Shown: one piece after another, positions 45,567-59,367 of the stretch | Position numbering within the stretch: the first letter of the stretch is position 1 | Layout of the letters: the number at the start of each line of letters is the position of its first letter | Source of the DNA: Terriglobia bacterium | Lineage (GTDB): Bacteria; Acidobacteriota; Terriglobia; Bryobacterales; Bryobacteraceae | Length of the DNA: 64,000 bases | Reading direction: 5' to 3' | NCBI GenBank assembly: GCA_020073445.1 | Contig: JAIQFE010000034.1 | Span: 1 to 64,000, forward strand | The notes under the pieces: generated by a model | Told to the model about the DNA's origin: nothing | Databases searched by the model: none | The model's input: the letters and a program-made list of their open reading frames with translations, nothing else | Program-made: the position numbers and the translations under genes

Positions 45567-48188
45567 CTATTCTTTAAACACAAGACCGGACGGCAGATCC
45601 TCGCCGAAGATCCGGCCCATGGCGGCCAGATGATCCTGCGGCTCGCGATCCAGTTCGAGGCCGGGGAAGGTCCGGCGAACGACACTCAATGTAGACGCCG
45701 GCAGATCGCGCGTGACATCGCCCGTATGCCGCGCCATCGCCCCAATCGCATCGCTCGCTTTTTCGACCTTAAGGAGCTGCTCGACCCAGCGCGCGGCGGT
45801 CGCCGGTGGCAAGACCTGGTTGATCGGCCCGTAGAACAGCTTTCGAGCGCCCAAACGCGCGAGGCACCACAGGCCGGTATCGACGAAGTCGCCCTTGACG
45901 ATGCGCGCGATCAATTCATCGCCCAACTGCGTCTTGGTCTGGATCGGCAGCAGCTCCAGGCTGGCCGCGGCGCGCCACATTTCGCGCAGCAGGCTCGAAT
46001 TCACACGCGGCCGCTTGGACCCGCGCGGCAGCAGCACAGGCGACAGGCGCTGGAACAGGTCGGTCTGCTGGTTTTTGTTGAGTCCGCCTGCCACTCGTCC
46101 CCAGAAGATCCACCACTCGATCTCATTCTGCATCTGATTCGCGAACTGCAGACCGGAGGCGTACACGCGGCGAGCCTGCTCGATACGAAAATCGTCGCCA
46201 GGGAATCCGAATCCCGGCCGCAGACAGAATCCGCATAAGTTGAGCCAGCGAAGTTCGTGCGCGGCGCTCTTCGAGCGGCCATCGACCAGTTCCAGCATGC
46301 GGTCGGCCAACGCGCGGATCGCCGATACGGGCCAGGAGTTGCGCCCCAAGCCGAGCGCCTGTTCCAGGCGTGCCGGCAACTGCTCGGGTTCCATCTGGCT
46401 GGTGGCAAATGCATGCGGGATGAGTTCAACGGCGGACCGCAGAGCTTCTTCGCTGATCACGGCCGCCGGCTTTTGCGGCCCCTCAGCCGCGGCGGCTTTG
46501 CGCAGCTGGAATTGCAGCCGCCAACGGTGCTCCGAAGTCTTCGACTCCGCCCAGATCTCGAGTGTCCCGACCTCGGTGAGTTTCGCCCCGAGTTTGATCG
46601 GAACCAGGCGCTCGCCCGCTTTGCCGAATCGCAAGACGGCGTGAAGGGGAGCGTGCAGATGCAGTTCGCTCTGCTCTTCCGGAGAAAACGTCACGACGTC
46701 GCCCGCCCGATCCTCGGTGCGCGTGCGCGAGCTGTATAGCCGGAAGGCGACCGGTTTGTTGGCGACGAGTTGGAGATTACCGGGGTCAAGCTCGATGGAG
46801 GAACCTTCTTCGGTGCCGCGCGGGGCGAGGCACATCGCTCGCAGAGAATCGCCGTCGCTGCCAGCAAGCCCGATAAAGTAGGCCCGCGGGAGACCGCCGC
46901 GCACCAGCAACCCAGCGCCCGTCGAGCGGACGTAAGAATAATACGCAGCGCCTACCGCCACTGCCAGATCCAGGTCGCGATTCTCGAAGATCACCGGACG
47001 GTGGCCGTACCAGTGCTCCATCACGTCCGCGACGCGCTGGCGCAAGACTTCCGGAATGAAGAAGCCGCCGTTGAACAGAATCGCGTCGGGCCGAATATTG
47101 CCCGCGCTTTCGAGGAACGCCGCCAGATGCCGCGTCACCGCGGGATCGGCCACCAGAGGCAACCCCACTTCGCGATACGGGCTGGACGCGTCCTCCTGCG
47201 GCTTATCGCTAAGCTCGCATGCCGGGAGGAATCCGTCCAGGGCCAGTTCCAGGACTTCTTCGCGCAGGATCTCAGTCTTGAGCGTTCCGCCGACCAGCGA
47301 CGATCCGCCACCAAGCACAGTAATCTCCACGCTCTTGAGGTTCGGATCGGAGAGGAGCTTCTCTTTGGCGGCCGCGCACTGGCGGCGCAAGGCACTGCGT
47401 TGGCGGATCGACAATTGCTTCCCGAGTTTTGATTCCACCAGCCAGGCCAGCGTCAGGTCCAGGTTGTCGCCGCCCAGCAGCAGGTGTTTGCCCACCGCAG
47501 TGCGAGTGAAATCGACGCGGTCACCTTCGCGGGTGACGCGGATCAATGTAAAATCGCTGGTGCCTCCTCCCACGTCGCACACCAGCACGTTCTGACCATC
47601 AAAGAGACTCTTTTGGGAGCGCGCCAGATCGTTGGCGATCCAGGAATAGAAGGCCGCGGCCGGTTCTTCCAGCAGCGTCAGCTTCTCAATTCCGGCTTCG
47701 CGCGCGGCCATCACCGTCAACTCGCGCGCTTCTTCATCGAAACTGGCGGGCACGGTGAGCACCACAGGATGCTCGCCTAGCGGCGAGCCCTGCGCCTTGG
47801 TCCAGGCTTCCGCCAGATGCTTCAGGATGCGCGTGGACGCTTCCACGGGCGAGAGTAAGCGGCCAGCCTCCTGCGCGTCCCACGGCAGGATCTTCGCGGT
47901 GCGGTCCACATCCGAGTTCGACAGCCAGCTCTTGGCCGAGTGGACGCATTGGGTCGGGACCAGGGCGCCTTGCTCGCGCGCGTAGACGCCGGTGAATTGT
48001 TGATCGTCCTTCGGGCCGGCGAGATACAAAAACGAGGGCAGGGTGCGTCGCGTTTCGACGCGTCCCTGCGCGATGTACTGCGGAACTTCAAGCACCTGAA
48101 TCGCGGGAGAATCCTCAGCCGCGGCTTGCGCAGGGTCAATGAAAGCGAGCGCCGAGTTGGTGGTGCCCAGATCGATTCCGATGTTCAT
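45567..48188 (-). CDS. Hsp70 family protein with DUF3731-like C terminus
   Basis: 873 residues. The N-terminal ATPase is DnaK-like: GIDLGTTNSALAF, EEPAAAFYSW, VCDVGGGTSDFTLI, ILFNGGFF and AVAVGAAYY. A beta-rich middle follows, and the C-terminal 300 residues (including WIFWGRVAGGLNKNQQTD and KRPRVNSSLLREMWRAA) match the DUF3731 extension instead of a DnaK lid. No EEVD-like tail. Located between DUF2760 and thiL; clients unknown. Confidence 0.9.
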   Translation of the reverse strand: MNIGIDLGTTNSALAFIDPAQAAAEDSPAIQVLEVPQYIAQGRVETRRTLPSFLYLAGPKDDQQFTGVYAREQGALVPTQCVHSAKSWLSNSDVDRTAKILPWDAQEAGRLLSPVEASTRILKHLAEAWTKAQGSPLGEHPVVLTVPASFDEEARELTVMAAREAGIEKLTLLEEPAAAFYSWIANDLARSQKSLFDGQNVLVCDVGGGTSDFTLIRVTREGDRVDFTRTAVGKHLLLGGDNLDLTLAWLVESKLGKQLSIRQRSALRRQCAAAKEKLLSDPNLKSVEITVLGGGSSLVGGTLKTEILREEVLELALDGFLPACELSDKPQEDASSPYREVGLPLVADPAVTRHLAAFLESAGNIRPDAILFNGGFFIPEVLRQRVADVMEHWYGHRPVIFENRDLDLAVAVGAAYYSYVRSTGAGLLVRGGLPRAYFIGLAGSDGDSLRAMCLAPRGTEEGSSIELDPGNLQLVANKPVAFRLYSSRTRTEDRAGDVVTFSPEEQSELHLHAPLHAVLRFGKAGERLVPIKLGAKLTEVGTLEIWAESKTSEHRWRLQFQLRKAAAAEGPQKPAAVISEEALRSAVELIPHAFATSQMEPEQLPARLEQALGLGRNSWPVSAIRALADRMLELVDGRSKSAAHELRWLNLCGFCLRPGFGFPGDDFRIEQARRVYASGLQFANQMQNEIEWWIFWGRVAGGLNKNQQTDLFQRLSPVLLPRGSKRPRVNSSLLREMWRAAASLELLPIQTKTQLGDELIARIVKGDFVDTGLWCLARLGARKLFYGPINQVLPPATAARWVEQLLKVEKASDAIGAMARHTGDVTRDLPASTLSVVRRTFPGLELDREPQDHLAAMGRIFGEDLPSGLVFKE

Positions 48189-48780: not shown

Positions 48781-50823
48781 ATGGCCAAACGGCATCTTTT
48801 CGGCGCGGGCCTGGTGGTTCTGGCCATTCTGATCACGCTGGTGGTGTGGCAGGTTTCCTTCACCTTCGGCGAGTTCGGTCCCACGAATGCCGCCGAGACA
48901 TTCCTGTTCTGGGCGGTCTCCACCCTGATCTTCCTGCTGACGGTGACGCTCGGCTTCATGCTGTTCCGGGAAACCGTCAAGTTGTACCTGGAACGGCAGC
49001 GCAACCGCGAAGGCTCGCGCATCCGGTCGAAACTGGTGTTCGGCGCGTTGGCGCTCAGCTTGCTCCCGGTGGTGTTCCTGGTGTTGTTCAGCTACGCGGT
49101 TCTGAACCGCAACCTCGACAAATGGTTCAGTGCCCCGGTGGAAGGCATGAACATTCAGTTGCGGGACGCCGCGGTAGGACTCGGCGAAGAGGTGCAGTCC
49201 CGGGCGGATGCATTGGCGCATTGGCTCGCCGCGCTCCCCGAAGTGAAGAACGGAACGGCGGACTTCTCCAAGCTGTGCCGCGAGAACCGGATCGAAGAGC
49301 TGCGGATCGATACAGCCGAGGGAAATCGCGTCCTGTGCGCCGCCACCGCGAGCGTGCCGCTTTTCAGCTCCCGCACGGAGATTTCCGGGGGGACACTGGT
49401 GGTTCGCGTCCGGCCGCATGTCGACGTCGTGGATACGCAAAAGCAGATCCAGGCATACGTGAACAAGTACAACCAGCTCTCGGCGGACCGCCGATCACTG
49501 CGATACTTGTACCTCTTGTTCCAGGTATTGATCGCGCTGTTCATCCTGTTCGTTGCCACGTGGATCGCACTGATCCTAGCGAAACAGATCAGCGTGCCTA
49601 TATCCGCGCTGCTGGATGCGGCCAGCCAGGTGCGGAAAGGCAACCTCAGCTATCGCGTGAACGTGCCCGCCAACGATGAAATGGCGACGCTGGTGCGCGG
49701 ATTCAACCAGATGATCGACGGCCTGGAGGATAACAGCCGCGAGCTCGAAAGCCGCCGCCGGTTCACCGAAGCGATTCTCGAAAGCATTCCCACCGGCGTG
49801 ATCTCGCTGACGTCCGACGGGCGCATCCAGCGCGTGAATCGCGCGCTGCGCGGGCTGTTTCCAGCGGATCAGGTGGAGCGTGCGGCCACCTTGGGCGATT
49901 TATTTCCACCCGAGCATGCCGCCGAGCTTCGCTACCTGATGAAGCGCGCGCGCCGCACCGGATTAGCCGCCAGTCAAGTGGACCTCGAGCGTCCCGGCCA
50001 GGTCCTGCACCTTGCTTTGACGGTTTCAGCGCTGCCGGCGCATGAGCCTGCCGCGCCGGGCTACGTGGTAGTTCTCGAAGACACCAGCGAAATGCTGCGC
50101 GCCCAGAAAGCCGAGGCGTGGCATGAGGTGGCCCGGCGGATCGCGCACGAGCTGAAAAATCCGCTCACTCCGATCGCGCTTTCCGCCGAACGGATCGCGC
50201 GCCAGTTGGACCGGGGAGCATCGACACCGGAATCCCATCGCGTGCTCCGGGAATGCGCGGCTACAATTTCGCGCGAAGTGGAATCGGTCAAGACGCTGGC
50301 CGACGAGTTTTCTCAGTTCTCGCGATTCCCCAAGGCTCAAATGGTCCCATGCGATTTGAACGCTGTGGTTCGCAACGGGCTGGACGTCTTCGATGGAAGG
50401 CTGGACGGGATCGACGTGCGCGCCGATCTGGCGCCGGATCTGCCCCGCGTCAATCTGGATCCCGACCAGTTCAAACGCGTGGTGGTGAACCTGGTGGACA
50501 ACGCGGCCGAGGCTATGCGGGACGCGATGGTCAAGAGGCTGATGGTGGTCACGCGCGCTACTTCGGCGGATTCGGTGGAGCTGCTGGTCGCGGATACGGG
50601 TTGCGGAATTTCCGCGGGAGACAAGGAGAAGCTGTTCTTGCCGTATTTTTCCACCAAAGGGCGCGGCACCGGCCTAGGTCTGGCGATCGTCAGCCACATC
50701 TTGAGCGAGCACGGCGGGCGCATCCGCGTGGAAGATAACCGTCCCACTGGTACCCGCTTCTTCGTCGAAGTGCCGGTCGCGGCGCTCGATACGATCGCTG
50801 CGGAGGCTGAGGTCCGCGCGTGA
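48781..50823 (+). CDS. NtrY-like sensor histidine kinase
   Basis: 680 residues. Three N-terminal membrane helices (about 7-28, 40-62, 82-107), a periplasmic sensor of about 130 residues, a fourth helix (about 243-265), HAMP, a PAS domain (about 330-440), HisKA with phosphoacceptor His456 in RIAHELKNPLTP, and HATPase with NLVDNAAEAM and GRGTGLGLAI. Architecture is that of NtrY, a nitrogen or redox sensor. Coupled to the regulator gene by a 4-bp overlap. Confidence 0.92.
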   Translation: MAKRHLFGAGLVVLAILITLVVWQVSFTFGEFGPTNAAETFLFWAVSTLIFLLTVTLGFMLFRETVKLYLERQRNREGSRIRSKLVFGALALSLLPVVFLVLFSYAVLNRNLDKWFSAPVEGMNIQLRDAAVGLGEEVQSRADALAHWLAALPEVKNGTADFSKLCRENRIEELRIDTAEGNRVLCAATASVPLFSSRTEISGGTLVVRVRPHVDVVDTQKQIQAYVNKYNQLSADRRSLRYLYLLFQVLIALFILFVATWIALILAKQISVPISALLDAASQVRKGNLSYRVNVPANDEMATLVRGFNQMIDGLEDNSRELESRRRFTEAILESIPTGVISLTSDGRIQRVNRALRGLFPADQVERAATLGDLFPPEHAAELRYLMKRARRTGLAASQVDLERPGQVLHLALTVSALPAHEPAAPGYVVVLEDTSEMLRAQKAEAWHEVARRIAHELKNPLTPIALSAERIARQLDRGASTPESHRVLRECAATISREVESVKTLADEFSQFSRFPKAQMVPCDLNAVVRNGLDVFDGRLDGIDVRADLAPDLPRVNLDPDQFKRVVVNLVDNAAEAMRDAMVKRLMVVTRATSADSVELLVADTGCGISAGDKEKLFLPYFSTKGRGTGLGLAIVSHILSEHGGRIRVEDNRPTGTRFFVEVPVAALDTIAAEAEVRA

Positions 50824-52184
50824 AGAACACGCGGGTTCTGATCGTAGACGACGAACCGGGCATCCGCGAATCCTTGCGCGGCGTGCTGGAAGACGAAGAG
50901 TGCACGTGCGAAGCCGTGGAAAGCGGCGAGCTATGCCTGGAGGAATTGCAGCGCCATCCGTATGACGTCGTGCTGCTGGATGTGTGGCTCCCTGGAATGG
51001 ACGGCCTGGAGACGCTGGCGCGCATTCAGGAAATCCCCTTCGCCGATCGCCCTGAAGTCGTTGTGATCTCCGGGCACGGCACCATCGAAACCGCCGTCAA
51101 GGCTACCAAACTCGGCGCATTCGATTTTCTGGAAAAACCGCTGACCATCGAGAAGGTGATGGTGGTGATCCACAATGCCGTTCAGCAGCGGCGTCTGGAA
51201 CTCGAACTCAGCCGCTTGAAAGACAGCGGCGACCAAAGAACACGCATCATCGGCGAAAGCGTGCCGATGAAGGCTCTGCGCCAGCAGTTGACGCTGATGG
51301 CCGCGACCAACGGGCGTGTGCTGATTTTCGGCGAGAGCGGAACGGGCAAGGAACTGATCGCACATGCGATCCACGCCGCCAGCTCGCGCGCCGATGAGCC
51401 TTTCGTCGAGGTAAACTGCGCGGCGATCCCCGAGGAAATGATCGAAAGCGAACTGTTCGGTCACCGCAAGGGCGCCTTCGCGGGCGCGGTGGAAGACAAG
51501 ACCGGCAAGCTTGAAAAAGCGCACGGCGGGACGCTATTCCTGGACGAGGTCGGGGACATGTCCCTGAAAACGCAGGCTAAGGTTTTGCGGGCGCTCGAAG
51601 AACAGCGCTTTGAGCCAGTCGGCGCGGCCGATTCGATTCAGGTGGACGCGCGCGTGGTCGCCTCCACGAACAAGAATCTGGAAGAAGAGATCGAACGGGG
51701 AAATTTTCGCGAGGATCTGTTCTACCGCCTCAACGTGATTCCGTTTCACGTGCCACCCCTGCGCGAGCGGATCGAGGATGTTCCGCTGCTGGCCGATCAT
51801 TTTCTACGGGAGTTCACCACCGCCTACGGCCGCAAGCCCAAGGAGCTGACCGAGGAGGCGCTGCGCGTGCTCGAAGAGTATCCCTGGCCCGGTAATGTGC
51901 GCGAATTGCGCAACCTGATGGAGCGGATCGTCATCATGAATCCGCAGCCGCGCATTGACGCGCGTCACATTCCCCTCGATCGTGCGCGTCGCGCGGTTTT
52001 CTACAAGCCAGTGGAGCGTTTCGGAAGCTTGCAGGAAGTGCGTGAAGCGGCCGAGCGCGATTACATCCTCAAGAAGCTCGAAGAAGCCAAGGGCAACGTC
52101 ACACGCGCGGCGGAAATGCTGGGGCTCGAGCGCAGCCATCTGTACCGCAAAATGAAAGCGCTGGGCATCGCGGCGCGCGAATAA
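50820..52184 (+). CDS. NtrX/NtrC-type response regulator with AAA+ domain
   Basis: 454 residues, GTG start. Receiver with Asp54 in LLDVWLPGMDG; AAA+ domain with Walker A GESGTGKE (171-178), LFLDEVGDM, and arginine fingers in FREDLFYRLNV; Fis-type helix-turn-helix at the C terminus (ITRAAEMLGLERSHLYRK-like, NVTRAAEM). The sigma-54-contact loop reads GAFAGA (218-223) in place of GAFTGA. It should respond to the NtrY-like kinase. Confidence 0.92.
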   Translation: MKNTRVLIVDDEPGIRESLRGVLEDEECTCEAVESGELCLEELQRHPYDVVLLDVWLPGMDGLETLARIQEIPFADRPEVVVISGHGTIETAVKATKLGAFDFLEKPLTIEKVMVVIHNAVQQRRLELELSRLKDSGDQRTRIIGESVPMKALRQQLTLMAATNGRVLIFGESGTGKELIAHAIHAASSRADEPFVEVNCAAIPEEMIESELFGHRKGAFAGAVEDKTGKLEKAHGGTLFLDEVGDMSLKTQAKVLRALEEQRFEPVGAADSIQVDARVVASTNKNLEEEIERGNFREDLFYRLNVIPFHVPPLRERIEDVPLLADHFLREFTTAYGRKPKELTEEALRVLEEYPWPGNVRELRNLMERIVIMNPQPRIDARHIPLDRARRAVFYKPVERFGSLQEVREAAERDYILKKLEEAKGNVTRAAEMLGLERSHLYRKMKALGIAARE

Positions 52185-52222: not shown

Positions 52223-52239
52223 GGTGGAAATCAGCCACC
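52223..52239. promoter_or_regulatory. Possible upstream activator site
   Basis: GGTGG-AAATCAG-CCACC, an inverted repeat about 65 bp upstream of the -24 box of the sigma-54 promoter, in the usual range for an enhancer-binding protein. Only the position and symmetry support it. Confidence 0.35.
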
Positions 52240-52302
52240 CGCTCAGGCCCTCCAAAGGGGCTAACCTCCCGGATTTCTTGCAGATCCAGTTTAGGACACA
52301 TT

Positions 52303-52318
52303 TGGCACACCGCTTGCA
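52303..52318 (+). promoter_or_regulatory. Sigma-54 promoter
   Basis: TGGCAC-ACCGC-TTGCA: the -24 GG (52304-52305) and -12 GC (52316-52317) are ten bases apart as required, and the match to TGGCACG-N4-TTGCW is broken only at one base. Predicted start of transcription is near 52329, just before GGAGG and the ATG at 52344. It lies downstream of an NtrX-type regulator gene. Confidence 0.8.
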
Positions 52319-52343: not shown

Positions 52344-52667
52344 ATGAAAAAGAGTTTATTGGCTGTGATGTTTTTGGTGGCGAGCAGCTCTCTGTTTGCG
52401 GCTCATTGGTCGGTGGGTATCGGCGTCGGAGTGGGACCAGCGTACGGTTATTATGCAGCGCCGCCACCGCCGCCGCCAGTCGCGTATTATCCGCCCAGTC
52501 CCGGTCTCGGATACTCTTGGGTTCCCGGCTATTATTACCCGGTAGGGGCTCGATACGTCTGGCGCGCCGGATACTGGGCTCGGCCGCCCTATGCGGGAGC
52601 CGTGTGGGTAGGACCGCGCTACGTGGGCGGTCGTTATTACGGCGGTTATTGGCGGCGCCACCGGTAG
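52344..52667 (+). CDS. Small exported Tyr/Trp/Gly-rich protein
   Basis: 107 residues from ATG 52344 (GGAGG eight bases upstream) with a signal peptide (MKKSLLAVMFLVASSSLFA). The mature part is rich in YY, PPP, W and G: VPGYYYPVGARYVWRAGYW, ending in WRRHR; similar to YXWXGXYW-repeat envelope proteins. Function unknown. First gene after the sigma-54 promoter, followed by the DUF3300 gene. Confidence 0.8.
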   Translation: MKKSLLAVMFLVASSSLFAAHWSVGIGVGVGPAYGYYAAPPPPPPVAYYPPSPGLGYSWVPGYYYPVGARYVWRAGYWARPPYAGAVWVGPRYVGGRYYGGYWRRHR

Positions 52668-52714: not shown

Positions 52715-53590
52715 ATGAAAAGAATGGCAGCTCTACGCACGATCACGATTACGATGCTGGCGGCGGTCCCGATTCTGGCGCAAGCGCCCCCGTCTTTCCC
52801 GCCCCAACAACTGGACAGTCTGGTTGCAAGAGTGGCGCTTTATCCCGATCCATTGCTGGCGCAGGTCCTGGCGGCGGCTACGTTTTCCGACCAGATTCCC
52901 GATGCGGCGCGCTGGGCAGATCAGCATCATTACCTCACGGGCGATGCATTGGCGCGAGATATTCAGGAAGATCAGTTGCCGTGGGATCCGAGCGTTCAGG
53001 CTTTGCTGCCGTTCCCGTCGGTACTGAGCATGATGGCTTCCGATCTGAATTGGACCCGCGACTTGGGCGACGCATTCCTGGCCCAAAACGCGGATGTGAT
53101 GGACGCAGTGCAGCGCATGCGTCGGCAGGCTCGCGATTTCGGTTACCTCCGATCGAACGGACAGATCGTCGTCAGCGGTGGGCCGTATATCGAGATCGCG
53201 CCGGTGAACCCGGGGCTGATCTACGTGCCTTATTACGATCCGCTGATTGTGTTCGCTCGGCCGCGCCCCGGCTTTGTCATATCGCGGGGGATCACCTTCA
53301 GCTTCGGTATTGGCATTGGACCGGCGTTCCGCCCGTGGGGCTGGGGCACCAATCGCTTCGTTTGGAACACGCACACCGTGATCATCAATAACGCCGAGTG
53401 GCGCCGGGGCTGGGGCAATCGAGGGACATACGTCCATCCCTATACGATCCGACGTCCCGGGCCGCCGCCCCGCATCGAGGAGCGTCATGAGGTGAGAGAA
53501 CGCGATGCCCGTGAGCGACAAGCAGAACACGGCCGCAAGCGTGTTGAGGACCATCGCAGGGAAGAGCGCAAGGAAGAGCGTCGACACTAA
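52715..53590 (+). CDS. DUF3300 family exported protein
   Basis: 291 residues with a signal peptide (TITITMLAAVPILAQ) and AGGAGG upstream. DUF3300 features: LDSLVARVALYPDPLLAQVLAAATF, AARWADQHH, DPSVQALLPFPSVLSMM and GLIYVPYYDPLIVF. The C terminus is a charged Arg/Glu/His-rich tail. Envelope location inferred; likely co-transcribed with the preceding gene. Confidence 0.9.
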   Translation: MKRMAALRTITITMLAAVPILAQAPPSFPPQQLDSLVARVALYPDPLLAQVLAAATFSDQIPDAARWADQHHYLTGDALARDIQEDQLPWDPSVQALLPFPSVLSMMASDLNWTRDLGDAFLAQNADVMDAVQRMRRQARDFGYLRSNGQIVVSGGPYIEIAPVNPGLIYVPYYDPLIVFARPRPGFVISRGITFSFGIGIGPAFRPWGWGTNRFVWNTHTVIINNAEWRRGWGNRGTYVHPYTIRRPGPPPRIEERHEVRERDARERQAEHGRKRVEDHRREERKEERRH

Positions 53591-54393: not shown

Positions 54394-57255
54394 TCAACCG
54401 AAAAATCGGTCGAACGTTGCGCGCGTCTCAGAGCGGATTCTGCTCAAATCCGACAGTGGGATCGGCGTCCAGCGTGGCAACAGCGCGTTCAGCGCGTCCA
54501 ACTGAGCGTCCGATCCCGGCAAGCGGCTCTCAGCGTGTCCCGTGATCACGCGGAGACCGTGATCCAGCGCGCGATAGAAGGTGGCGGCATCGTTCAGGAA
54601 CTGGGCATCCGCACGGCCCAAGTGACCCATCTGTTCCAGAACTTCGATGCGCGCGGGTGTATTCAGCACCGTGAAAAACACGCCCGCGCTTTTCAGGCGC
54701 AGGTACATCAGCAGAAAATCGATATCGTAGTAGCCACCGCGGCCGGCCTTCAAGGGACGCGAGGGACCTTGCTCCTTCTCCAGGCGCGCCCGCATCTCGC
54801 GCAGATCGGCTCGGGAACGCCCGCCCTGCCCGTACCGACGCCAGTCGACCTGTTGCAGCCCATGCAGAAACAGCTCAGCGCGTTTGGGATCGCCGGCCAC
54901 GGCCAGCGATTTCATGTAGGTAATTCCTTCCCAGGCCTCGGCGGCGTTGGCGAAGTAGTCCGTGACGGCGCTCTCGGTTTGCACCAGAGGACCGGCGGTT
55001 CCATTGGGCCGCAAGCGCTCGTCCACCGCGAATAGGACGCCTTCGCCGGTGTAAGCGGTGATGAGATGCACGATGCGCTCGGCTACGCGGGTCCAGAAGA
55101 CCATCTCGGAAGCGTCGGGATCCGGCAGCACGAACACCAGATCCGCGTCCGAGCCCAGATCGAATTCGCGCATCCCGAGCCGCCCGAGCGCGATGATCGA
55201 CATCTGATTCTTAGGCTGATAGGCAGGATCCTCGGGCGGGTTCGACAAGCGCACATCTGCGATCGCGATCTCGTAAGCCCGCGCGATCACCTTGTCGGCG
55301 AGCCTCGAGGTCTTGTCCAGCGTTTCGAAAATCGGATGCGACCGGCAGATGCTCTCGGCTTCAATCCGCAGGATCGCGCGTCGGAACCAGCGGCGGAGCT
55401 CGGTAGCGTCATGCGGAGGCGGCTCGTCCTGAATCAGGGGAATGGAGACGCGCGCGAGCTCGTCCATCGATTCCGGCCGGCGGATCAGATCTTCGGCGAA
55501 ATACGGGCTGTGCTCGAACAGATCCAGAGCCGTGGCCGCCAATTCCGGGTCGGAATTCAGCCGCTCCAGACGCGCGGGATCGTTCGAAAGGCGCTCCAGA
55601 AAATATTCGAAGGGAACATACCCGCGATGCAGGTCGGCGCGCGCGATCGCAGCCGCCAGAGCGGGTGCGCGCTGATCAAGCGCCTGGATGACGAACGCGG
55701 TCGGGCGGCCGGCGGGTTGCTCGGAAGGCTCAACTGGCTGGATTTGGGCGGAACCCACAACCGGCCGGGAGGTCACCACGCGTTCATACATTTCGATCAC
55801 CGCCGCGAAATGATGGTGCAGCTCGCGCAGGAGCGATTCGGCCGAGCCTCCTCCGGAACTAGCGCCGGGCATGCGCCGCGCGATCAGCTCCAAAGCCGCT
55901 GGATCCTCGGGCAGGCTGTGAGTCTGCCGGTCTTCGTCGAATTGCAGACGGTGTTCCAGGTGGCGCAGGAACTGGTAGGCCTGGGCAAGCCGGCCGTACT
56001 CGGCGCCGGTAAGATAACCTTTGTCCTGCAGGCGCGCGAGCGCCAGCATGGTTCCGCCGTGACGGACCCAGGGATCGGCGCCCCCGTGCAGGCGCTGCAG
56101 GCACTGGACCAGGAACTCGATGTCGCGGATGCCGCCGCGTTCCAGCTTCACATCGATTCCGCCTGGCTGTGCACGCGAGCCAGCCGGACGCTTTTCCTGA
56201 CGATCCGCTAGCTTTTCATTAATTCGCTCGCGGGTGGCGGAGAGTTCCTCGATGGCGGAAAAGTCCAGGCTGGTGGAATAGATCCGGGGCTCGACGAAAT
56301 CCAGCAGTGCGCGTCCGGTGGGGCGATGGCCCGCGGCTACACGCGCCTTGATCAGCATCTGCAATTCCCAATCGCGCGCACGCTTCTCGTAATAATTTTG
56401 CGCGCCCTCAACCGATATACAGACCTCGCCCAGGCTTCCGTCGGGGCGCAGCCGCAGGTCGACGCGATAGCACATCCCTTCGGCGGAATAGGCTGACAGA
56501 AGGCCCGTCAGCTGATTGGACGCCCGCTTGAAGAATTCCTTGTTGGATATACTCACCGGCCCGGTGGTCTCGCCGTTGGCCGAATACAAGAACATCAGGT
56601 CGATATCGGAACTGTAGTTGAGCTCCTCGCCGCCCATCTTTCCCAGCGCGATCACCGCAAAGTGCGAGGGGCTCCGGGAATCGTCATCCGAGCGGGGCTG
56701 GCCGTAGCGCGCCACCAGATCCCGGAAAATACGCTCGTAGGCTACGTCGACGATGGCGTCGGCGACGGCCGTCAGCTCGCCGGTGATCTCCGGCAACGTA
56801 CCCAGGCCCATTACGTCGCGAACCATGATTCGCAGAATCTGGCGCCGCCTGAACTTCGCCAGATCGACGGGCGATGGAAGGCCCGGAGGAAGAGCCGACT
56901 CGAGGCTCGCGCGCAGATCCTCGACAGTGGCGACGCGCTGCAACGCGACAGGATAGAGAAGCTGATCCGCCCAGGCGGGATGCTCCAGGATTTCCTCGGC
57001 CAGGAACTGGCTATAAGTGAATACGGCCACCAAGTGGCGCATTCCGATGGCGGAGCGGGTCAAGCGATCAAAGGCGCCGGGGTGCTGCTCCCGCAATCGC
57101 GTGAAGTAGTGCAGACCCTGCTCAGGTGCGGGCGAACCCGCGAGCAAAAGATCGAAGCGATTCTGAACGGCCGGAGGCAGATACGACGCGAGGGCTGTCA
57201 GCTCACGCAGGGCGCGCTTGCGATCCCGATAGGGAAGACTCGACAGACGATGCAT
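54394..57255 (-). CDS. glnE: Glutamine synthetase adenylyltransferase/deadenylase
   Basis: 953 residues from ATG 57255, normal for GlnE. Two nucleotidyltransferase domains each with a metal-binding motif: SSDIDLMF near residue 216 (deadenylylase half) and GSDADLVF near 700 (adenylylase half), linked by a helical regulator domain. It attaches and removes AMP on the tyrosine of glutamine synthetase under PII control. Downstream of the MOSC gene by 8 bp. Confidence 0.94.
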   Translation of the reverse strand: MHRLSSLPYRDRKRALRELTALASYLPPAVQNRFDLLLAGSPAPEQGLHYFTRLREQHPGAFDRLTRSAIGMRHLVAVFTYSQFLAEEILEHPAWADQLLYPVALQRVATVEDLRASLESALPPGLPSPVDLAKFRRRQILRIMVRDVMGLGTLPEITGELTAVADAIVDVAYERIFRDLVARYGQPRSDDDSRSPSHFAVIALGKMGGEELNYSSDIDLMFLYSANGETTGPVSISNKEFFKRASNQLTGLLSAYSAEGMCYRVDLRLRPDGSLGEVCISVEGAQNYYEKRARDWELQMLIKARVAAGHRPTGRALLDFVEPRIYSTSLDFSAIEELSATRERINEKLADRQEKRPAGSRAQPGGIDVKLERGGIRDIEFLVQCLQRLHGGADPWVRHGGTMLALARLQDKGYLTGAEYGRLAQAYQFLRHLEHRLQFDEDRQTHSLPEDPAALELIARRMPGASSGGGSAESLLRELHHHFAAVIEMYERVVTSRPVVGSAQIQPVEPSEQPAGRPTAFVIQALDQRAPALAAAIARADLHRGYVPFEYFLERLSNDPARLERLNSDPELAATALDLFEHSPYFAEDLIRRPESMDELARVSIPLIQDEPPPHDATELRRWFRRAILRIEAESICRSHPIFETLDKTSRLADKVIARAYEIAIADVRLSNPPEDPAYQPKNQMSIIALGRLGMREFDLGSDADLVFVLPDPDASEMVFWTRVAERIVHLITAYTGEGVLFAVDERLRPNGTAGPLVQTESAVTDYFANAAEAWEGITYMKSLAVAGDPKRAELFLHGLQQVDWRRYGQGGRSRADLREMRARLEKEQGPSRPLKAGRGGYYDIDFLLMYLRLKSAGVFFTVLNTPARIEVLEQMGHLGRADAQFLNDAATFYRALDHGLRVITGHAESRLPGSDAQLDALNALLPRWTPIPLSDLSRIRSETRATFDRFFG

Positions 57256-57263
57256 GACGGAAC

Positions 57264-57761
57264 TTACGCGGTTTCGTCCACCAACTGGATCGGATCGCCG
57301 GGATGGATGGTCCCTGCCCGCAAGACGGACGCATAGACTCCGCTCAAACACCAGCGCGGCGACGTATGGTTCCCATCTTTCACGTCTTGATCATAGACCG
57401 CCTTCTGGATGCCCGGCCCGTAAGGGCTCAACGTCTCACAGGGGGAGCGGACTTTGGTGATCTCGACAAGAACTTCGCCGATCCGGTAGCGCTGGCCGAT
57501 ACGCAGCGAGCGACGGTCCAGGCCGCGCGTGGTGAGGTTTTCGCCAAGGGCGCCGTGATACAGCGGGAAGCCTTGTGCCTTGAGCTCGTCGATGCCTTCG
57601 GAGGTGATGATGAGGATCGCCTGGCGCGGACCGCCGTGGACCTGCGGATTCGCGTGTGCATCGCCAGCGATACCGAGCGAAGTGACTACTCCAGCGGGGA
57701 TCGGGCGCTTGGGTATGCCGCCTAGAGAAACGTTGATTTGAAGAACGGACGCTGACGGCAC
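57264..57761 (-). CDS. MOSC domain protein
   Basis: 165 residues from GTG. MOSC core of YiiM type: VLQINVSLGGIPKRPI, GDAHANPQVHGGPRQA, GENLTTRGLD, RIGEVLVEITKVRSPCETL with the conserved cysteine. MOSC domains bind molybdenum cofactor sulfur. Followed closely by glnE; a functional link is not obvious. Confidence 0.88.
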   Translation of the reverse strand: MPSASVLQINVSLGGIPKRPIPAGVVTSLGIAGDAHANPQVHGGPRQAILIITSEGIDELKAQGFPLYHGALGENLTTRGLDRRSLRIGQRYRIGEVLVEITKVRSPCETLSPYGPGIQKAVYDQDVKDGNHTSPRWCLSGVYASVLRAGTIHPGDPIQLVDETA

Positions 57762-57927: not shown

Positions 57928-59367
57928 TTAGAACTGGTTCCAGAGATACTGATTGTAAATCTCGTGGTGGTACTGCACTTCCTGCGGCTTGACGATGGTG
58001 CCGAGCAGCCGGGCGCAACGATCGGCCGACGCCTTCTTGAGATCTGCGTAGCGGCCCTTCACATCCTCGCCCAGGATCGTGGTGATCCACTCGGACTTGT
58101 TGAAGTTGTCCATGGCGTCGTAAATGTTGTCGGGCAAATACCGCTTGGCCGACCGGAGATTGGGGGTCTTGTCGATGCTGCCGTCGATACCAGACTTGAA
58201 GATCGAGTAGAGCACCATGTACGGATTCGCGTCCGGCGCGACGGAACGGACTTCGACGCGCGAGCTGCGCTCGTTGCCGATCGGAATACGGACCATGGAT
58301 CCGCGATCCACGGCGGAGGCGATGATCTGGTTGGGCGCCTCAAAGTGCGGGTCCAGACGCCGGAAGGCGTTGACGCTGGGATTCAACAGCAGGCAGATAT
58401 CGTTGCCCACGGTCAGAATGCGATCGACGAAGTCCCAGGCTTCCTTGCTGATCTTCTCTTCACCCTTGGGATCCCAGAAAATGTTCTTCCCGCCCTTGGT
58501 GATCGAGACGTTGGTGTGCATGCCGCTTCCGTTCACGCCCACGACGGGCTTGGGGAGGAAGCTGGCCGTGAAGCCCATGCTGGTGGCCACCTGCCGGCAG
58601 ATCAGCTTGTAGAGCTGGATGTGATCGGCAGCCGCAACCACTTCGGCATAGCTGTAATTGATCTCGAACTGCGAAGGCGCTACTTCCGGGTGGTCTTTCT
58701 CGTTCTGGAAGCCCATCGCGCGCTGCACTTCGGCGGCGGTGTCGATGAATTGGCGCAGCGGATCGCCGGGAAGCGAGTGGTAGTAGCCACCGGTGTTGAC
58801 GTACTCGAACTTACCGGTTTCGGAATAGTGCCGCTCGGCGTCCACTCCCTTGAACAGGAAACCCTCGATTTCGTTGGCGGCGTTCAGCGTGTAGTCGTTC
58901 TTGGCGTGTTGATCCTGGGCGAACTTCTTGAGCACGCCACGGATGTCGGCCGTATACGGGCTGCCGTCCTTGTCGATAACTTCGCCGAAGACCAGCACCT
59001 TGCCGGGACCGAAGTAATCGGCCGGCGCCCAGTAAAAGGCGGACCAGTCCAACCCCAGCCGCAAGTCGCTCTCCTTCTGCGCCGTGAAGCCGCGAATCGA
59101 GGAGCCATCGAAGGTCAGGTTGTCCCAGCTTTTCAGCAGGAACTTCTTGTCGTAGTCCAGCATGTGCAGACGGCCCTCGAGGTCGCTGAACAGGAGAGTT
59201 ACCGCCTTGATGCGCTTCTCATCCGTCAGATATTTCAGCCGTTCTTCCTGGATCTTCTCCATGGGAACGCGCTTCATCCGCTGGTCCTTGGCATGCAGGT
59301 TCTTCTCTTCCAGTTCCGTGTAGGAAAGCTTCAGGAAGTCTTGCAATCCGCTGTTTCCGTTGTTCAT
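57928..59367 (-). CDS. Glutamine synthetase paralogue
   Basis: 479 residues. An N-terminal helical extension precedes the beta-grasp (KAVTLLFSDLEGRLHMLDYD) and catalytic domain: FDGSSIRGF, metal ligands in ANEIEGFLF and NGSGMHTNVS, and RVEVRSVAPDANPY. The adenylylation tyrosine region reads DNIYDAMDN rather than NLYDLPPEE, so GlnE control is doubtful. AAGGAG is seven bases before the ATG. Either a real glutamine synthetase escaping adenylylation or a gamma-glutamyl ligase. Confidence 0.9.
   Translation of the reverse strand: MNNGNSGLQDFLKLSYTELEEKNLHAKDQRMKRVPMEKIQEERLKYLTDEKRIKAVTLLFSDLEGRLHMLDYDKKFLLKSWDNLTFDGSSIRGFTAQKESDLRLGLDWSAFYWAPADYFGPGKVLVFGEVIDKDGSPYTADIRGVLKKFAQDQHAKNDYTLNAANEIEGFLFKGVDAERHYSETGKFEYVNTGGYYHSLPGDPLRQFIDTAAEVQRAMGFQNEKDHPEVAPSQFEINYSYAEVVAAADHIQLYKLICRQVATSMGFTASFLPKPVVGVNGSGMHTNVSITKGGKNIFWDPKGEEKISKEAWDFVDRILTVGNDICLLLNPSVNAFRRLDPHFEAPNQIIASAVDRGSMVRIPIGNERSSRVEVRSVAPDANPYMVLYSIFKSGIDGSIDKTPNLRSAKRYLPDNIYDAMDNFNKSEWITTILGEDVKGRYADLKKASADRCARLLGTIVKPQEVQYHHEIYNQYLWNQF

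Follow-up and report, generated by a model that had tools for sequence, protein, structure and literature searches.

The window, by which we mean the whole stretch of 64,000 nucleotides analysed here, comes from a Bryobacteraceae genome that totals 6.58 Mb over 102 contigs. It contains a two-component pair, consisting of a sensor histidine kinase gene and an NtrX-like response regulator gene, followed by a dyad, a -24/-12 element and two genes for proteins of the WXXGXW and DUF3300 families (Table 1). The best NCBIfam models for the sensor kinase score far under their cut-offs, and its closest named relatives, 91-94% identical, are found in metagenome-assembled genomes titled Terriglobia, Bryobacteraceae and Bryobacterales. 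The response regulator has all three domains of its class, namely AAA+ (PF00158, 235 bits), receiver (PF00072) and Fis-type HTH (PF02954). The first-pass annotation had called it NtrX, and the protein does match the NCBIfam NtrX model NF051870; its score of 465.7 bits is below the curated cut-off of 600, so NtrX-like is the safer name. The two genes downstream had been described as encoding an exported Tyr/Trp-rich protein and a DUF3300 protein, and both assignments hold, with PF12779 at 21.3 bits (gathering cut-off 18) for the ORF 52344-52664 and PF11737 at 173.7 bits (gathering cut-off 25) for the ORF 52715-53587. The DUF3300 gene starts 47 bp past the WXXGXW gene and has the same orientation; the two genes probably share one transcript.

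Table 1. Features at the NtrX-like locus, in window coordinates
Feature	Position	Strand	Basis
Sensor histidine kinase gene (HAMP, PAS, HisKA, HATPase_c)	48781..50823	+	Pfam matches; upstream partner of the NtrX-like gene
NtrX-like response regulator gene (receiver, Sigma54_activat, HTH_8)	50820..52184	+	Pfam; loop GAFAGA vs GAFTGA
Dyad GGTGGAAATCAGCCACC, read as putative UAS (enhancer)	52223..52239	+	in 7/7 genus ntrX loci that bear WXXGXW, 0/15 others; phased spacing family-wide
Putative -24/-12 (sigma-54) promoter element TGGCACACCGCTTGCA	52303..52318	+	motif match; conserved in 7/7 loci
Predicted start site	52329	+	counted from the -12 element in the sequence
Small exported Tyr/Trp/Pro-rich WXXGXW (PF12779) protein gene	52344..52667	+	Pfam; after ntrX in 7/22 genus loci
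DUF3300 (PF11737) gene	52715..53590	+	Pfam; present here in 3/7 WXXGXW-bearing loci

The wider neighbourhood contains other recognizable genes. Upstream of the kinase gene is one whose Hsp70-like product carries a DnaK-related domain, DUF3731 (45567-48188, minus strand), and which occupies the same place in loci L110-L112. Also close to the kinase/NtrX-like pair, both on the minus strand, are a gene matching GlnE, the glutamine synthetase adenylyltransferase (54394-57351), and a gene matching glutamine synthetase (57928-59367); their presence may hint at a link to nitrogen metabolism.

The sigma-54 promoter is defined by a -24/-12 element with GG-N10-GC spacing, and the element TGGCAC-N5-TTGCA between the NtrX-like and WXXGXW genes has exactly this spacing. 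The predicted start site would give the WXXGXW gene a leader of 15 nt. The first-pass annotation had described the element as near-consensus and as the only one of its kind noticed in the window. The observation was borne out: there is a single exact match in the window against a mean of 0.03 in dinucleotide shuffles, and a tolerance of one mismatch raises the count to 2, where 0.96 would be expected. Over the whole genome the enrichment is weak, with 5 exact matches against 2 for a reversed control pattern, and 20 against 11 for the shorter TGGCAC-N5-TTGC. None of the other four exact matches has a GGTGG-N7-CCAC dyad upstream within its 3-kb locus. As the exact motif is barely enriched in the genome, the case made here does not lean on motif counts; the motif alone is weak evidence, and we accept it as a sigma-54-type element because it is conserved.

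The second element is a dyad, GGTGG-N7-CCACC, which begins 80 bp before the T of TGGCAC. It had been placed just downstream of the NtrX gene, and it does lie there, 38 bp past the stop codon. By number alone such dyads are at chance level in the window (4 with one mismatch, 2.5 expected), and of four dyads found in the genome only this one has the promoter. Among relatives, the dyad is kept in both position and sequence, and it is best read as a putative enhancer, or UAS. Searches of the genus for the dyad alone also match coding sequence and four near-identical stretches resembling part of a tRNA gene (L132, L133, L142 and L143), which are a trap for pattern searches of this kind.

Joint conservation of the two elements was followed across NtrX orthologues, which are present in 22 of 23 genus genomes and, in a sample of 81 genomes from the family, in 72 (L110-L112, which appear identical to genomes L090-L092, were counted once). 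A WXXGXW gene follows ntrX at seven of the 22 genus loci, and at every one of these the dyad and a TGGC-N8-TGCW element lie between the two genes; a DUF3300 gene is within reach downstream at three of the seven. At the 15 other genus loci neither the dyad nor the -24/-12 element was found within 700 bp (for L103 only 140 bp were available), and no WXXGXW match follows ntrX at 28 loci from elsewhere in the family (L062-L089). When the seven regions were aligned, most of the invariant columns fell within the arms of the dyad or within TGGCA...TGCA. Furthermore, the spacers between the elements vary in length in steps of about 11 bp, with distances of 57, 58, 58, 69, 69, 69 and 80.

The same arrangement recurs across the family. 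A composite pattern, GGTGG-N7-CCAC followed after 42-72 bases by TGGC-N8-TGCW, matched 106 of the 237 genomes of the family, a figure that includes chance matches in coding sequence, and gave at least 150 matches against 23 for the reversed control (the control summed by eye). A stricter pattern run on 399 genomes of the class matched 25, of which 24 were among the 101 family members and one among the 298 genomes outside, with 3 control matches (sums by eye). A UAS-like core in either orientation was assigned to 80 of 150 rows among the matches listed, by a rule that was written after the sites had been seen and that ignores spacing. Among these listed matches, the spacing is 58-61, 68-71 or 79-81 bp in 63 of the 80 UAS-like rows; an even spread over the 31 allowed spacings would put about 28 rows there. 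The favoured spacings are one helical turn apart, and the 80 bp of the window falls among them. For the 77 distinct promoters among the matches listed, phasing at 10.5 bp gives R=0.64. Rows that are not UAS-like are also phased (R=0.41 among the matches listed), mostly because 21 of these 70 share a spacing of 75. These 21, which fall outside the UAS-like class, resemble many copies of a single coding sequence, and leaving them out lowers R to 0.22.

Some of the listed matches are not regulatory sites. At least eight of the 80 UAS-like rows among the matches listed are chance matches inside coding sequence; L160, L173 and one match in L212 (coding), together with one L218 spacing (a duplicate), were excluded from the column table and from the list of proteins. 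Fifteen of the 80 UAS-like rows, set apart by eye, were read separately as 14 regions: eight of these have the arrangement upstream of a gene with an exported-looking product or, in one case (L312), duplicate a promoter read elsewhere, and six of the 14 regions are chance coding matches (class labels assigned by eye). An IHF site between enhancer and sigma-54 promoter is a frequent, not an obligatory, feature. Among the matches listed, an IHF-like sequence that departs from the consensus at no more than one position occurs in 28 of 63 spacers, against about 2 in mononucleotide shuffles, which lose local A+T clusters; these matches are suggestive only. In the window spacer, the best IHF-like match has four mismatches to that consensus.

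The reading of downstream genes covered 66 loci, with 74 site records, and the 15 rows set apart. Of 63 downstream ORFs, 60 were scanned for protein families, L161, L175 and L176 being left out since their ORF calls looked wrong. Among the matches listed, the 60 proteins include 27 with FecR, 26 with DUF6600, 12 with WXXGXW and two with DUF3300 matches (E up to 0.01), and 58 of them have a hydrophobic N-terminal stretch, which is found in 18 of 49 ORFs of the window. In the window's own genome the strict composite pattern occurs only at 52223-52318. Four genes in this genome match PF12779; two of the three others are immediately preceded by a -24/-12-like element that carries one mismatch and have no clear UAS, and the third has no -24/-12-like element there. 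The first-pass annotation had raised the idea of a sigma-54 envelope regulon and a search for the motif ahead of YXWXGXYW and DUF3300 genes. The wider part of this proposal gains ground at the level of the family, where a UAS plus -24/-12 element stands before FecR/DUF6600, WXXGXW and some DUF3300 genes, and falls short within the genome itself, with its one strict site. DUF3300 was rejected as a constant target: 26 of 32 DUF3300 loci, most close relatives of the window's gene included, lack the arrangement, so that DUF3300 appears to be an occasional member. A UAS-like dyad plus promoter-like site is present upstream at six of the 32 (the window, L021, L023, L024, L036 and L037) under relaxed limits, most of them weak. 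In other genomes, genes related to the window's DUF3300 lie away from ntrX. Taken as a whole, the comparison supports a sigma-54 envelope regulon across Bryobacteraceae, of which the window site would be one member.

These results lead to the question of the activator. Sigma-54 activators touch the sigma factor through a GAFTGA contact loop with Thr or Ser at position 4. The window's genome has one match to rpoN (PF04552, 194.4 bits) and 22 strong activator domains, in 20 of which the loop retains Thr or Ser and ends in GA; the remaining two are the local NtrX-like protein, with GAFAGA and hence Ala at position 4, and another with GAFTDA. None of the 22 congeneric NtrX proteins has Thr or Ser at this position, including those of the seven loci that carry the promoter. 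Single changes in the GAFTGA motif, above all at Phe and Thr, are described in PMC3162934 as reducing or mostly abolishing activity. With neither Thr nor Ser at this position in any of the 22 congeners, and with 20 other activators intact, the local NtrX-like protein is unlikely to be the sigma-54 activator, and the alternative by which it binds the dyad and activates the promoter with sigma-54 in spite of its altered loop seems to us improbable. What speaks for that alternative is that its gene lies directly upstream at the seven loci, that NtrX is widespread in the family and that 18 of 28 NtrX proteins from elsewhere in the family keep Thr, so that NtrX may have worked with sigma-54 ancestrally; the loss within the genus is possibly a recent change of mechanism. 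Against it, NtrX is nearly universal in the genus, whereas the promoter accompanies it at only a third of the loci (7/22), and no clear link was seen in 28 genomes between NtrX loop state and regulon sites. Also, tblastn with NtrX found no activator gene when 20 stretches surrounding regulon sites, each 12-20 kb long, were searched (one of the stretches has a kinase-like match), nor in the regulon-site loci. Control by the local two-component system or by another activator had been left side by side in the first-pass annotation; the local route through sigma-54 fares poorly, and the activator is probably encoded elsewhere in the genome.

The NtrX-like protein might instead bind the dyad without sigma-54, as a repressor, as a competitor of the true activator or with another sigma factor. 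There is precedent in Caulobacter, where, according to passages of PMC10274813, NtrC is a regulator of sigma-70 promoters that lacks the loop motif, and NtrX lacks the motif as well. The likeness lies in regulators of the NtrC/NtrX type that lack a proper motif for contact with sigma-54; the same passages give the Caulobacter NtrC change as a deletion of eight loop residues, whereas here the change is from a single Thr to Ala or Pro. Position alone ties the NtrX-like protein to the dyad, however, and the regulon sites of other genomes do not adjoin ntrX, so we consider this role quite unlikely. Less probable still is that the dyad is the terminator of ntrX and the -24/-12 match an accident. 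The short distance of the dyad from the ntrX stop codon and the weak genome-wide enrichment of the exact motif would fit such a reading, but no T run follows the dyad, the two elements are kept together at all seven loci, and both are met again, at phased distances, in front of exported genes that are not next to ntrX. The terminator reading of the dyad was rejected on the missing T run and on this recurrence before other genes.

We therefore favour, with a probability of about 0.75, the reading that 52223-52318 is a sigma-54 control region, composed of a UAS and a -24/-12 promoter, for the WXXGXW gene, that it belongs to an envelope regulon, and that its activator is unlinked. Under this model, drawn from comparison of sequences, an enhancer-binding protein whose gene lies elsewhere in the genome would bind GGTGG-N7-CCACC, and one such unlinked activator may serve all the sites. 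A DNA loop would then bring it to the sigma-54 polymerase waiting at the -24/-12 element, which lies on the matching helical face, and the ATPase of the activator would open the promoter. Transcription from the WXXGXW promoter would probably also read DUF3300. In a bolder version, which we hold to be a long shot, a single novel enhancer-binding protein would run the family-wide regulon (FecR/DUF6600, WXXGXW and some DUF3300) through GGTGG-N7-CCACC, and the NtrX of this genus, having lost its sigma-54 contact, would have become a competitor or a sigma-54-independent regulator at the same enhancer.

The arrangement resembles the QseE/QseF (GlrK/GlrR) system of E. coli glmY and rpoE, which, in the passages of PMC6075780 that describe it, has a sigma-54 promoter beside a two-component operon, a UAS upstream and an envelope output. 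As given there, the QseE/QseF UAS is TGT-N12-ACA, in contrast to the GGTGG-N7-CCACC found here; the neighbouring regulator is the activator and is helped by IHF, whereas the neighbour here has an altered loop; and the targets here are the exported proteins themselves. The proposed regulon also fits the picture of sigma-54 as a controller of the bacterial exterior, with sigma-54 promoters before envelope and surface genes, presented in PMC3162934. The main text of that paper, when searched for Acidobacteri, Solibacter, Koribacter and FecR, contains no mention of them, and neither the GGTGG-N7-CCACC UAS nor its targets were seen in it. Within the open-licence literature we found no description of sigma-54 regulation in Bryobacteraceae soil bacteria or of such a regulon.

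The findings would make a regulon definable and testable, together with its DNA site, in soil bacteria. They would also tie exported proteins of the DUF6600/FecR and WXXGXW families, and some of DUF3300, to one switch, and provide a clear example of a regulator that adjoins a sigma-54 promoter and is probably not its activator.
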